Shown one piece after another: positions 13,594 to 36,514 of a DNA stretch of 38,207 bases. The stretch is from Prolixibacteraceae bacterium. Its GTDB lineage: Bacteria; Bacteroidota; Bacteroidia; Bacteroidales; Prolixibacteraceae. A program made the position numbers and the translations under genes. Every line of letters begins with the position of its first letter. Position 1 is the first letter of the stretch. The notes beneath the pieces were generated by a model. That model ran no database searches, was not told the DNA's origin, and saw only the letters and a program-made list of their open reading frames with translations. Location: the NCBI GenBank assembly GCA_029265875.1, contig JAJUGS010000004.1:1-38207 (forward strand). Reading direction: 5' to 3'.

Positions 13594-15837
13594 TTAGTTA
13601 AAAATTAAAGCCGACGGTGGCGCATCTTCCGGTGCCGAGCCCCACTGTTTGTTTGGCTTCGAACCCATTTCGAGTTCCAGTGTGGCGCCGTTCATCAGTT
13701 CATCGTGGGTAAACCAGGTTTTGGTGAGCGGCTTTCCGTTCAGTTTTGCCGACTGGATGTATTTGTTCACCACCGAACAACCGGGCGCTTTTATGGTAAA
13801 TGTTTTTCCGTTTTCGAGCTGAATTTTTACCTCTTCAAAAACCGGACTACCGATTGTATAAATTGGCAGACCTGGTGTTACCGGATAAAATCCCATCGAC
13901 GAAAAGACCACAAAAGCGCTCATGCCACCGCCATCTTCATCGCCGGGAATACCAAAAATGTTGTCTTTGAACCACACATCGAGCAGAAAACGGATGCGTT
14001 TTTGGGTTTTCCAGGGTTCGCCGGCATAATTGTACAGGTACGGTATATGAAAACTGGGTTCGTTGCCCATGGAATATTGCCCCACATTTCCGGTGGCATC
14101 GGGGAATTTGGCCCAGAATGCGTAACGGCTTCTCCCCAGTGGTTCGCGGAAAAGCTGGTCTAAAGTTTTGGTGAATTCCTCACGTCCGCCCATCAATCCG
14201 ATTAATCCCTGAATATCCTGCTGTACATGCCACTGGTAGGTGAAAGCGTTGTTTTCGTCGTAGTAATCGCGGCCGCCGGGGCCTCCGTCAAATTTCGGGT
14301 CGATTTCAATCCACTCTCCCTTTTCATTTTTAGGCCACATCAGTTTGGTTTCGGGGCGGTACAAATTGCGGTAGTTGGCAGCCTGCCCGTTGAAATATTT
14401 GTAATCATCTTCTTTGCCAAGTTCTTTGGCCAGTTGTCCCAGCGCCCAGTCGTCGTAGCTGTGCGCCAGCGTGATGGCCACACTCTGCCGTTTTTCAAAA
14501 CCGTGTACTTCAGGATACGTTTCCTTTTCATCGGGAGCCAGTGCCGGGAAAAATCCTTTTTCGCGATAAAACACATCCAGCGCGGTTTTTGGGCCGTTTC
14601 TCCAGGGTAACATGGTGGCGTCGGTGGCGTTCTTTTTCACACCTTCGTAAGCTTTCTGCACATCATAATCACGCAGGTTTTTACGGTAGGCATCCAGAAA
14701 AACGATGGTGGAATGAAAACCGTGCATGGCGGGATTGTCCATAAAAAGTAAGGGAAACTGCGGCATCCAGCCACTTTGTTCGTACATTTTTACATACGAA
14801 TTGAGCATGTCGTTTTCCTTTTTGGTATCGAGAATCATCCGCAGCGGGTGATGTGCCAGGTAGGTATCCCACACCCAGTCATCGACATAAAACGGGCGGT
14901 CGGTTTCGTGAACCTGGTGGTCGTAAGCGCTGTAATATTTCCCGTCTTCGGTGATGTCAACCATGCGTTCGTAACAGCGGTAAAGGGCCGTGTAAAAACT
15001 GCGCTTCTGCGCTTCGGTGCCCCCCTTCACCTGTATTTTTCCCAATGTTTCCTCCCAGACAGCTTTTCCATGGTCGGCCAGTTTTTCAAACTCCCAGCCA
15101 TCAATTTCGTTCTTCAGGTTCTTTTCTGCCTGCTCGGCGCTGATAAACGAAACGGCGTATTTTAACTGAACCACCGGGTTTTTGCTTTCCGAAAAATCAG
15201 CCCACAAAACGGGTTTTCCTACCGGTTGTTCAGGAGTTCCGTTTTCTTCAATCAACACTTTTGGTTCGGTGTCGAATTCAGCATAAACAAAGGCTTTCAT
15301 CCCCTGAAACTCTTCCACTCCTGTAAATACTTTGGCCGAAACAGGTTCCCATTTCCCGGTATTTACAAGATTGAAACGCAGCCGTTTTTCGCCATTTTCA
15401 GGAAAGGTAAAGCGAAAAATGGCGCTTTTATTGCCGGGAACAAATTCGGTTGTGATTTCGTCGTCGATTAAGTAGGTTGAATAGAAAAAAGGGCGTGTAA
15501 CTTCCAGTTGATGGTCGTATGTCTGGCGATTTTTCCAGGTTCTTTTTTCAGGATTTCCGGTTCCGGGCAAAACGCCAAACAACTCGCCGTTGCGGTGCGA
15601 TGCAATGGTGAGCGGAAAAAACCGGATCTGGTCGTCGACAAAATCGGCCCGCACCGGGTACATTCTTATTACCTGGTTGGGTAATTGCGCGGTTGGCCGC
15701 GTGGGTTGCAGCAAAACGCTTACATTCCCGATGGTCGGGTCAACATACTGTGTCAGCGATTCGGGCTGTTCTTTGGTTTTGCAGGAAACTAACAGAAGTG
15801 AAACGGCTGTAAAGATGATGAAGATTTGAATTTTCAT
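13594..15837 (-). CDS. GH92 family alpha-mannosidase-like lipoprotein
   Basis: YVDPTIGN start, DDWVWDTYLAHHPL, GGREEFTKTLDQLF, GIPGDEDGGGMSAFVVFSSMGFYPVTPG; lipobox LLLVSC. Confidence 0.9.
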   Translation of the reverse strand: MKIQIFIIFTAVSLLLVSCKTKEQPESLTQYVDPTIGNVSVLLQPTRPTAQLPNQVIRMYPVRADFVDDQIRFFPLTIASHRNGELFGVLPGTGNPEKRTWKNRQTYDHQLEVTRPFFYSTYLIDDEITTEFVPGNKSAIFRFTFPENGEKRLRFNLVNTGKWEPVSAKVFTGVEEFQGMKAFVYAEFDTEPKVLIEENGTPEQPVGKPVLWADFSESKNPVVQLKYAVSFISAEQAEKNLKNEIDGWEFEKLADHGKAVWEETLGKIQVKGGTEAQKRSFYTALYRCYERMVDITEDGKYYSAYDHQVHETDRPFYVDDWVWDTYLAHHPLRMILDTKKENDMLNSYVKMYEQSGWMPQFPLLFMDNPAMHGFHSTIVFLDAYRKNLRDYDVQKAYEGVKKNATDATMLPWRNGPKTALDVFYREKGFFPALAPDEKETYPEVHGFEKRQSVAITLAHSYDDWALGQLAKELGKEDDYKYFNGQAANYRNLYRPETKLMWPKNEKGEWIEIDPKFDGGPGGRDYYDENNAFTYQWHVQQDIQGLIGLMGGREEFTKTLDQLFREPLGRSRYAFWAKFPDATGNVGQYSMGNEPSFHIPYLYNYAGEPWKTQKRIRFLLDVWFKDNIFGIPGDEDGGGMSAFVVFSSMGFYPVTPGLPIYTIGSPVFEEVKIQLENGKTFTIKAPGCSVVNKYIQSAKLNGKPLTKTWFTHDELMNGATLELEMGSKPNKQWGSAPEDAPPSALIFN

Positions 15838-16129
15838 AAAACAGGCTATTGTTGATGTCCTTTAATATTTCGTTCCTACGGAACTTTTAATCAATTTGTT
15901 ATCAATTTGCTACCCATATTATGTCCCTATAGGACAGTTCCGTCAGGAACTAAATATGGGTAGAAAAATTCATTTAACCGAGTATTTTAAGTCCCTTTAT
16001 GGACGAGATAATATTTTTTACAAAAAATACGATTTAGTTATCTATAATTTCCTTAATCCTTTATTCTCCAATAACAAAATCAAAATTTCAGGTTCATCGG
16101 TTTGAATGATGTTGGCGCCGTTTTTCAGC
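15760..16129 (-). repeat. Donor-like copy of inverted duplication (GDPD tail + intergenic + GH92 head)
   Basis: Reverse complement aligns with 23014-23381; ~16 differences counted by eye. Confidence 0.9.
15910..15963. repeat. Multibranch palindromic element: outer 11-bp stem enclosing two hairpins
   Basis: CTACCCATATT/AATATGGGTAG enclosing GTCC-N5-GGAC and GTTCC-GTCA-GGAAC. Confidence 0.75.
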
Positions 16130-16914
16130 AGGTTTGCAAGCGCCTCTTCCGTTTTCCCCGACCTGATTAATTCGTCCTGTTTGCCAAGCGCGTTTATCCA
16201 GATTCTTGCGTCTTTCTTTTTCAGCAGGTTTGTTAACTCTGGTGTATAAAACGATTCGTCGATGTGCACCACTTCGGGCGCAAAAACCCGCAGAGCCGAA
16301 TCGGCCATTTCATACGAGTAGGCGCGGGGCATCAGAATGGCTTCGGGTAACATGGTCAGCACTTCTTTCAGTGCATCGTAGTCGTTGTCGAAGAAGAAAA
16401 CCTGGTTTTGGGTGCCGGTTTTTTTAATTGCATCCACCACCGGTTTCAGGTTGCCTGTTTTTATGTCGATATCGATAAGCGCTTTCCCTTTGGCAATCAA
16501 AAGCGCCTCCTCAAAAGTGGCCAGTTTTTCGTTTGTCAAAGTTCCGTCGGGCATTTCGAGCCTGAATTGCTGCAACTCTGCCCAGGTATATTTTTCGGGG
16601 TCACCGGTGCCGTTGGTGGTGCGGTCGATTTTTCCGTCGTGATTCAGCACCACCACGCTGTCTTTGGTTACTTTCACATCGAGTTCAATAATATCGACGC
16701 CAATTTCGATGGCATGTCTGATGGCTGAAACAGAATTTTCGACATACATTTTATTAGATGCACGGTGTGCGGCCACCATCACATAACCCGATTTTCCGTT
16801 GTGAAATGCAGCCAGAATTTTGCTGAATGGCTGGTCAGCCTGAAAGGAAAAAAGTAAGAGGGAGGCGAAAAAAAGAGGGGAAATTTTCTTTATGCTAATC
16901 ATTATTTTGGCCAT
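16042..16914 (-). CDS. Glycerophosphodiester phosphodiesterase (GDPD) family protein
   Basis: VAAHRASNKMYVENSVSAIRHAIEIGVDIIELDVKVTKDSVVVLNHDGKIDRTTNGTG. Confidence 0.9.
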   Translation of the reverse strand: MAKIMISIKKISPLFFASLLLFSFQADQPFSKILAAFHNGKSGYVMVAAHRASNKMYVENSVSAIRHAIEIGVDIIELDVKVTKDSVVVLNHDGKIDRTTNGTGDPEKYTWAELQQFRLEMPDGTLTNEKLATFEEALLIAKGKALIDIDIKTGNLKPVVDAIKKTGTQNQVFFFDNDYDALKEVLTMLPEAILMPRAYSYEMADSALRVFAPEVVHIDESFYTPELTNLLKKKDARIWINALGKQDELIRSGKTEEALANLLKNGANIIQTDEPEILILLLENKGLRKL

Positions 16915-22635: not shown

Positions 22636-23100
22636 ATGAATCAGACTACTTTAGCTGGAAAAATCAGCGCGGGCAAAACGGTTTACGGAACCTGTATTTC
22701 TTCTGCAGCGCCACTCTGGGGAAAAGCTGCCCTTATTGCAGGCCTCGATTTTGTATTTCTTGATACCGAGCACATTCCGCTTGAATGCATGGAAGTGGCG
22801 ACGCTTTGCCAGTTGTATAGTGCCATGGGAATTGCACCCATCGTTCGCATTCCTTCGCCCGACCCGTTCCGTGCCTGCCAGATGTTTGATGCCGGTGCAA
22901 CCGGGGTGGTGGCGCCTTACATCGAAACTGTTGAGCAGGCGCAGGAAATGGTGGGCGCCATCAAATACAGGCCCTTAAAAGGGAAACGTTTGCAAAAAGC
23001 GCTGCAAAACCCGCTGAAAAACGGTGCCAACATCATTCAAACCGATGAACCCGAAATTTTGATTCCATTATTGGAGAATAAAGGATTAAGGAAATTATAG
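22636..23100 (+). pseudogene. Chimeric ORF: N-terminal ~120 aa of HpcH/HpaI-type aldolase fused to the C-terminal ~30 aa of the GDPD
   Basis: ...FLDTEHIPLECMEVATLCQLYSAMGIAPIVRIPSPDP...YRPLKGKRLQKALQNP then LKNGANIIQTDEPEILIPLLENKGLRKL*, matching the GDPD tail. Confidence 0.85.
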
Positions 23101-23381
23101 ATAACTAAATCGTATTTTTTGTAAAAATATTATCTCGTCCCTAAAGGGACTTAAAATGCTCGGTTAAAAAAATTTTTCTACCCATATTTAGTTCCTGACG
23201 GAACTGACCCATAGGGACATAATATGGGTAGAAAATTGATAACAAATTGATTAAAAGTTCAGTAGGAACGAAATATTAAAGGACAACAACAATAGCCTGT
23301 TTTATGAAAATTCAAATCTTCATCATCTTTACAGCAGTTTCACTTCTGTTAGTTTCCTGCAAAACCAAAGAACAGCCCGAA
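23014..23381 (+). repeat. Inverted second copy of the 15760-16129 segment
   Basis: Direct comparison with reverse complement of 15760-16129; ~95% identity by eye. Confidence 0.9.
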
Positions 23382-23906
23382 GCGCTGGCGCAGCTGGGTC
23401 GGCCCGATGCAGTGTGGGATTTGATAAATCAAAAAACTTATCCAAGCTGGAACAGTATGATGGAAAAATACACCACCGTCTGCGAGTTCTGGACACTGAA
23501 ACAATCGAAAAACCATGTGATGATGGGCAGCATCGACGCGTGGTTTTACAAGTACATCGCCGGAATCCGGCTCAGTGAAGAGGCTCCGGCTTTCAAATCG
23601 TTTGTCATTCAGCCAAACTTGCTGAAAGACCTTGACCACGCATCGGGCGGCACAGAAACCATCCGGGGAAAAGTATCTTCTTCATGGAAAACTGAAAATG
23701 GTAATTTCAGTCTGAATGTGGAAATCCCCTTTAACACGACCGCTGATGTATTTGTTCCCGCTGCCGAAAAATCAGCAATCTTTGAGGGCAATCAGCCTGC
23801 CGAAAAGGTGAAAGGAATTCAATCGCTGGGTTTTGAAAACGGTTTTCATCATTTCAGGGTTGGCTCGGGGAGGTATGGTTTCTCCTGTAAAAAGAATAGC
23901 AATTAA
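23304..23906 (+). pseudogene. Chimeric ORF: GH92 lipoprotein signal fused to C-terminus of a GH78 alpha-L-rhamnosidase
   Basis: MKIQIFIIFTAVSLLLVSCKTKEQPE is identical to the 13594..15837 gene N-term; then AVWDLINQKTYPSWNSMMEKYTTVCEFW...SIDAWFYKYIAGIRLSEEAPAFKSFVIQP, typical of GH78 C-termini. Confidence 0.85.
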
Positions 23907-23918
23907 TTGATAATAACA

Positions 23919-24509
23919 ATGATAAACGATGAATTAATCAAGTATTACTGGCTAAATCAGCCAAAACGTTCGGTTTTGGAATTGAATCAATTGATTATTG
24001 AAACCGAACCCGGCACCGACCTGTGGCAGCGCACCTATTACGGTTTTCAGAATTGCAACGCCCCGGCGTTTCTGCAGGAAGTGGAAGGTGATTTTTCGTT
24101 TGTGGTAAAAACCGAATTCGAAGAGAGCAGCTTTTTGTACGACCAATGCGGGCTGCTGCTATTTATCGATAACGAAAACTGGGTAAAAGCTGCGGTGGAG
24201 TTTGAAAACGAACAGTTTTCAAGATTGGGTTCGGTAGTTACAAACTTGGGATTTTCCGATTGGGCCACCACCGATATCGCATCAGAAACTTCTGAAATGT
24301 GGTACCGGGTCAGTCGCCGTGGCCAGGATTTTTATCTCGAAAACTCGGCAGATGGGAAAAACTGGCAGCAAATGCGGATGTTTCATTTGCACAAAGTCGC
24401 TGAAAAAGTGAGCGTGGGTGTGTATGCCTGCAGCCCGCTGCAATCCAGTTTTAATGCTGTTTTCTCATTGTTCGGGATTCTGCCTTGTCAGTGGCCTGAG
24501 TACAAATAA
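23919..24509 (+). CDS. DUF1349-like concanavalin A-fold protein
   Basis: GTDLWQRTYYGFQNCNAPAFL, DFSFVVKTEF, YDQCGLLLFIDNENWVKAAVEFEN, VGVYACSPLQSSFNAVFSLF. Confidence 0.8.
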   Translation: MINDELIKYYWLNQPKRSVLELNQLIIETEPGTDLWQRTYYGFQNCNAPAFLQEVEGDFSFVVKTEFEESSFLYDQCGLLLFIDNENWVKAAVEFENEQFSRLGSVVTNLGFSDWATTDIASETSEMWYRVSRRGQDFYLENSADGKNWQQMRMFHLHKVAEKVSVGVYACSPLQSSFNAVFSLFGILPCQWPEYK

Positions 24510-24531
24510 ACAACCAATAAACAAAAATAAA

Positions 24532-25810: not shown

Positions 25811-26794
25811 TTGAAATTTATGAAGTCAATTGTTTTAACAATGATTTTGTCTGTTGTTTTATTTCTCGGAAATGATATTTCAGCGCAAAAATACAACACC
25901 GTAAAAATTGGAATGTGCACCGATGTGCACCTGCCTACCATGCACGACGCGGAATACAGAATAACTACTTTTATCGATGCCATGAAAAAGGAAAAACCCG
26001 ATTTCATCATCGAACTGGGCGATTTCGGAACGCCAAAGGAAAACTGTGTCCCGTATTTTAAAATCTGGGATTCTTCTCCGGGCGATAAATATCATGTCAT
26101 CGGCAACCACGAAATGGACGGCGGCACAACACACGAAGAGGCATTGCAATACCGGAACCTGAAAACCGGTTATTATTCGTTCAATAATTACGGGTTTCAT
26201 TTTATCGTGCTCGATGGCAACGACAAGAAAGACCCGAATGCAAAGGGATACAAACAGTTTATCGGTCCTGAACAGGTGGAATGGCTGAAAGCCGACCTTG
26301 CAAAAACCACCACTCCGGTTGTAATTTTCTCGCACCAGGGACTGGCACATTACAGCAGTGCCGACGAAGAGTATGGCGTTGAAAACTACAAGCAAATGCA
26401 GGAAATTCTGGAAACACACAATAAAAACAACCCACATGCAAAGGTAATCGGTTGTTTTAACGGGCACACGCATTACGATTATGCTGAAAATATCAACGGA
26501 ATCTGGTACATTACCATCACGTCCATGTCGTATCATTGGCTGGGCAAAAAGTATGAACACATTCGATACAGTCCCGAAGTGGATAAAAATTTTAAATGGA
26601 TAAAATACACAGCCCCTTTCAAGGAGCCGCTTTTTACCACGGTTGAAATCTCTTCAAAAGGGACCATCAAAATTGCCGGAAAGAAAACCGAATGGGTGGG
26701 ACCAACTCCCTGGGAACTGGGCTACCCGGTTGAACTGAAAAAATACATGCGCCCGGCCATCTCAAAACGAAATTTGAAATTCAGTTTGAAATAA
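25811..26794 (+). CDS. Metallophosphoesterase (calcineurin-like), secreted
   Basis: MCTDVHLP, IELGDFG, VIGNHEMDGG, VIFSHQGLAH, CFNGHTHYDY. Confidence 0.85.
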   Translation: MKFMKSIVLTMILSVVLFLGNDISAQKYNTVKIGMCTDVHLPTMHDAEYRITTFIDAMKKEKPDFIIELGDFGTPKENCVPYFKIWDSSPGDKYHVIGNHEMDGGTTHEEALQYRNLKTGYYSFNNYGFHFIVLDGNDKKDPNAKGYKQFIGPEQVEWLKADLAKTTTPVVIFSHQGLAHYSSADEEYGVENYKQMQEILETHNKNNPHAKVIGCFNGHTHYDYAENINGIWYITITSMSYHWLGKKYEHIRYSPEVDKNFKWIKYTAPFKEPLFTTVEISSKGTIKIAGKKTEWVGPTPWELGYPVELKKYMRPAISKRNLKFSLK

Positions 26795-26796
26795 AC

Positions 26797-26861
26797 AAAA
26801 CCACATAGCCACATAGAACATATAAGAATTTACTATTGTGCCCTATGTGACTATGTGGTTT
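26797..26861. terminator. Inverted repeat / possible terminator or REP-like element
   Basis: aaaccacatagccacatag ... ctatgtgactatgtggttt. Confidence 0.55.
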
Positions 26862-26875
26862 AAAGAATATGCTGT

Positions 26876-36329: not shown

Positions 36330-36395
36330 AAGCCACCTTTCCGTTCCCCTGAGTAAGTCCCTGTCCCGTTCACCAAAAGGGGTAAAGCGAAAGTA

Positions 36396-36514
36396 AAAGC
36401 CTGTAAGGCTTAAATTTGAATAACCCCAGGTTTTAACCTGGGGACTGATAGCTAAATAGACAATCCGTCAACGATGAAACCCGGATTGAAAAGCAACTGT
36501 GGTTGCGGACGGAA
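36396..36514 (+). repeat. Composite intergenic repeat, same family as 661-782
   Basis: aaagcctgtaaggcttaaatttgaataaccccaggttttaacctgggg ... gattgaaaagcaactgtggttgcggacggaa. Confidence 0.75.

Follow-up and report, generated by a model that had tools for sequence, protein, structure and literature searches.

An inverted 370-bp copy of a GDPD-GH92 junction between truncated aldolase and GH78 genes in a Prolixibacteraceae contig

Double illegitimate recombination during natural transformation is reportedly known from Acinetobacter baylyi, and no open paper was found for the phrase 'short-patch double illegitimate recombination'. A signature of replicative template switching described in human rearrangements is microhomeology at the joins (PMC6902434). 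Among the chimeras formed in multiple displacement amplification, more than 85% are inverted, and in most of these the joined segments lie within 10 kb of each other (PMC1855051). The locus described below, in which a short inverted segment lies between the remaining parts of an aldolase gene and a GH78 alpha-L-rhamnosidase gene, two genes of sugar breakdown, was compared with each of these.

The inverted copy and its source

The window, meaning the whole stretch of DNA that was analysed, is a complete contig of 38,207 bp (C322) from an uncultured bacterium of the Bacteroidota, whose draft genome of 420 contigs and 4.26 Mb is 94.4% complete with 2.74% contamination. Comparison of the window with itself by BLASTN exposed only one long inverted pair, 22999-23393 against 16143-15748, with 373 of 396 positions identical (E ~1e-174). 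The outer 14-15 bp at each end of this pair were recognised, by comparison with the nearest relative (G008), as aldolase or GH78 sequence lying outside the repeat: window positions 22990-23017 are 100% identical to the G008 aldolase, and at the right end the GH78 of G008 reads GCCCGAAGCGCTGG. The pair was trimmed at the crossovers, within GCTGA on the left and within GCCCGAA on the right (Table 1), which left 370 alignment columns between the copy and the reverse complement of its source; the two are 95.7% identical, the differences being 15 substitutions and a single gap of 1 bp. The sequence-only reading had placed the copy at 23014-23381 with about 16 differences, and the alignment returned almost the same coordinates and differences. 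As in a templated insertion, the segment copies DNA from elsewhere, here about 7 kb away, and the source has been retained, with the donor GDPD and GH92 genes both full length according to Pfam. The two copies form 370-bp inverted repeats around 6.9 kb, and homologous recombination between them would be expected to invert the 6.9 kb, with GDPD and GH92 intact either way. Repeats of another kind were observed at the start of the contig, a repeat-rich end where two tandem copies of ~229 bp (97% identical) occupy 4-463, with weaker relatives at 661-783 and 36395-36514.

Table 1. Coordinates of the copy, its source, the interrupted genes and the joins in the window
Feature	Position	Strand	Details
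Inverted copy	23013..23381	+	Last 28 codons of GDPD, spacer containing the palindromic element, signal-peptide region of GH92
Source copy	15760..16129	-	GDPD end, palindromic element between the genes, GH92 start
GDPD-family phosphodiesterase, intact donor gene	16042..16914	-	PF03009; orthologue in G008 C13/C343
GH92 lipoprotein, intact donor gene	13594..15837	-	PF07971, PF17678; G008 C343 orthologue, 83% DNA identity
HpcH/HpaI aldolase N-terminal half, codons 1-127, C-terminal half missing	22636..23017	+	PF03328 profile positions 7-111/221
GH78 alpha-L-rhamnosidase C-terminal 176 codons, ~770 N-terminal codons missing	23376..23906	+	PF17389, PF17390
Chimeric ORF 1, aldolase N-half and GDPD tail (28 codons), 154 aa	22636..23100	+	Open across join
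Chimeric ORF 2, GH92 lipoprotein signal and GH78 C-terminus, 200 aa	23304..23906	+	Open across join
Left edge, 18-bp microhomeology	22999..23017	+	Aldolase GCGCTGCAAAACCCGCTG / GDPD GCGCTTGCAAACCTGCTG, 14/18; crossover in GCTGA 23013-23017
Right edge, 18-bp microhomeology	23375..23393	+	GH92 CCCGAATCGCTGACACAG / GH78 CCCGAAGCGCTGGCGCAG, 15/18; crossover in GCCCGAA 23375-23381

The differences between copy and source comprise nine substitutions and one gap in the spacer, and, in the coding parts, three synonymous single changes and one codon with all three bases changed. At this codon (23065-23067) the copy has CCA (Pro), the source TTG (Leu) and the outgroup G008 CCT (Pro); G008 and the copy share the proline, so the source is the derived one at this position, and the copy, being independent of the source in its present form, is no read-level duplicate of it.

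Two interrupted genes and their intact counterparts in relatives

Both edges of the copy fall inside genes, as had been proposed from the sequence, and fuse the aldolase to the GDPD tail and the GH92 signal to GH78 in frame. Aldolase and GH78 were also said to have each lost the part facing the other, which agrees with the partial domains found by Pfam and with the full-length orthologues of G008; the second chimeric ORF contains the last 67 of the 339 positions of Bac_rhamnosid6H (PF17389, 273-339) together with Bac_rhamnosid_C (PF17390). A suggested comparison with related loci revealed the intact arrangement in G008, where aldolase and GH78 are adjacent, full length and set in the same neighbourhood, the order GH92, GDPD, ..., DHDPS, AraC, HAD, aldolase, GH78 being that of the window. 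This locus extends over four contigs with terminal overlaps of 20 to 57 bp; its aldolase orthologue has 270 aa (L030:6367-7179), and its full GH78 spans contigs C289 and C116, where the junction corresponds to about residue 774 in the open frame. In G001, G002 and G006, too, a GH78 frame of full length was observed close to the aldolase. Relative to G008, ~2.75 kb (about 2,751 bp), made up of the last 431 bp of the aldolase, the spacer and the first ~770 GH78 codons, has been replaced by 370 bp. The missing aldolase and GH78 parts were searched for across the genome's own assembly and were not found elsewhere, the search with the aldolase returning residues 1-128 only, and the single match over all 154 residues of ORF 1 among the relatives was the full aldolase of G008, which is no fusion. 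Judging from their domain content, both fusion products are very probably without function, since one would comprise half an aldolase barrel and the other a GH78 devoid of nearly all its catalytic barrel. Next to DUF1349, G008 carries two genes that are absent from the window (23906-24531), a second GH92 on the upstream side and, downstream, one for a protein of 789 aa; G002 and G006 likewise showed no second GH92, and the content of this catabolic locus thus differs from species to species.

The order of the copied parts (GDPD tail, spacer, GH92 start) would also be produced if a second GDPD-GH92 pair had once been located between aldolase and GH78 and had been whittled down by deletions, an origin that had been raised from the sequence. 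It found no counterpart in the relatives, as such a pair or its remnants are absent between the two genes in every relative whose locus was read, and the one GDPD-GH92 pair of G008 is syntenic with the source in the window. At least two independent deletions would moreover be required, both ending in frame at homeologous motifs, and we regard this origin as extremely improbable.

Stops and frameshifts were looked for in the broken fragments and none was present. In the aldolase fragment, one strictly conserved site is changed, R51C at codon 51 (22786-22788), where all 80 homologues carry Arg, and at least one change at conserved sites occurs in 6 of the 80 other aldolase rows; the GH78 fragment shows no changes in 44 conserved columns, and the intact genes of the window carry as many conserved-site changes as the broken fragments. 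This pseudogene drift test was based on leave-one-out conserved columns and has low power. In relation to the near-identity expected of a templated insertion, an identity of 95.7% was observed with fragments lacking clear decay, which calls for either an old event or a donor other than this source. The same two observations argue for a recent event whose donor had diverged beforehand, or for an assembly chimera; within the low power of the test, either of these would seem to fit the fragments better than 4% drift in place. The donor was probably an allele or strain with slight divergence (about 4%), or else the copies have had time to drift since the event.

Short matches at the joins and the origin of the rearrangement

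Microhomeology, as described for templated insertions, is present at both joins (Table 1). Matches of at least 14/18 have a frequency of 1.3e-5 among all aldolase x GDPD 18-mer pairings, and 15/18 was reached by 0 of 278,778 control pairings of GH78 x GH92 18-mers (<4e-6). The four edge stretches encode KALQNPL, EALANLL, EALAQLG and ESLTQYV, all in the same frame. Each match being an in-frame coding motif, the reading frame runs on through each fusion; as the positions of the matches fix the frame, the in-frame fusions would be no sign of selection for a fusion protein. With both edges in imperfect matches of 18 bp, strand switching at microhomeology is indicated. It had also been considered that homologous conversion was seeded at palindromic elements common to both intergenic regions, with its ends resolved illegitimately, and a palindromic intergenic element is indeed contained in the copy and has weak relatives elsewhere in the genome. 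The element, however, lies in the middle of the segment, away from the joins, so that seeding by it is not needed; the coding microhomeology explains the edges with no palindrome as anchor, and by eye no such element is apparent in the intact aldolase-GH78 spacer of G008, a relative that is only about 75-83% identical to this genome. Palindrome seeding is accordingly very unlikely. A short palindrome-like repeat was separately observed at 26783-26868, matched on both strands in contigs C26, C353, C340, C393 and C368 with 74-85% identity, and probably represents a dispersed intergenic element.

We favour, with modest confidence, one rearrangement in vivo, which would most likely have been a double template switch or a double illegitimate recombination at microhomeology. 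A DNA end in the aldolase would have annealed at the imperfect 18-bp match in the GDPD tail, ~370 bp would have been copied or taken in with inverted orientation, and rejoining in GH78 at the second imperfect 18-bp match would have removed ~2.75 kb. An in vivo event is favoured because G008 has an intact HAD-aldolase-GH78 order in the same synteny, including the GH92-GDPD donor, because full-length GH78 near the aldolase recurs in three further relatives, and because the missing parts were not found elsewhere in the assembly. It is further favoured by the rarity of the edge matches, by a donor only 7 kb away, for which ~0.3% would be expected if joins were random over 4.26 Mb, and by the outgroup Pro in the copy where the source has Leu. 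The inverted pair is also the sole non-tandem within-contig repeat (>=150 bp, >=90%) in the 617 kb sampled, where cross-contig strain duplicates of >=95% were absent as well, and join-point microhomeology is a described template-switching signature (PMC6902434). That the rearrangement is real, all real readings taken together, appears fairly probable.

The principal rival is an assembly or amplification chimera, in which the genome would really be intact and a 370-bp GDPD-GH92 piece of a co-occurring strain would have been joined between aldolase and GH78, either through amplification chimeras or through an assembler step tolerant of mismatched short overlaps. The edge overlaps of 14/18 and 15/18 are such as mismatch-tolerant overlap joins would leave, although a de Bruijn graph can join only by an exact k-mer, and here the bases shared exactly number only 5 and 7; no usable paper was found on mismatch-tolerant gap closing in assemblers. 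The metagenome-type draft assembly, with its 420 contigs and its contamination, counts against an in vivo event, as do the fragments, which lack clear decay and sit awkwardly with 4% drift in place. The missing 2.75 kb, as a contig, would be close to the shortest lengths in the bin (1.8-2.5 kb). Nearby inverted chimeras formed at short complementary sequences, with joins at 2-21 bp, are a hallmark of multiple displacement amplification artefacts (PMC1855051), yet a plain amplification product would match its source fully and not at 95.7%, and two joins would be required, the donor's position 7 kb away being a coincidence. Other chimeras and strain duplicates, which are expected of an artefact and not strictly defining for it, numbered none in the sample of 617 kb (about 14% of the genome); near copies of this region were also not found in the same genome, the matches being short repeat elements and paralogues, and the exact pattern of the left join was absent from viral contigs, as expected. 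The sequence-only reading had taken the divergence of the copies to exclude an artefact; this holds for the same read used twice and does not extend to a strain-mixture chimera, which we consider quite possible, though not probable.

Comparison with known systems

The in vivo rearrangement, if real, would provide a clean natural example of imperfect 18-bp matches steering an illegitimate join while frames are kept open, and hence a route to chimeric genes. The two apparent 'fusion proteins' are by-products, whether of a rearrangement or of the assembly process, and do not deserve annotation as novel domain architectures. An ordinary accident of DNA copying or repair, and thus an ordinary gene-breaking rearrangement, is most likely, and no new kind of system is implied.

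The locus resembles templated insertions of the MMBIR/FoSTeS type in its short inverted templated segment from nearby, the deletion at the target and the imperfect short matches at both joins; it differs in that the segment measures 370 bp and is 4% diverged from the present source, in that the event is a reconstruction from sequence, and in that the papers found describe eukaryotes. It shares with multiple displacement amplification chimeras the inverted orientation, a donor less than 10 kb away, an intervening deletion and exact matches of 5-7 bp at the joins, whereas two joins and a 4% diverged donor set it apart from them. With the double illegitimate recombination of A. baylyi it has in common that a short segment replaces resident DNA via two short matches, and in that process the donor may be another strain, and the 4% divergence would then be explained. 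With regard to such a foreign donor, the copy keeps the outgroup Pro where the source has Leu, and the three single coding differences are synonymous. A real and recent event in an environmental member of the Bacteroidota, with the segment drawn from a diverged strain and placed inverted by two microhomeology joins so that two in-frame fusion ORFs arose, would represent double illegitimate recombination in a natural population, an account that we put forward as a tentative and rather unlikely one.
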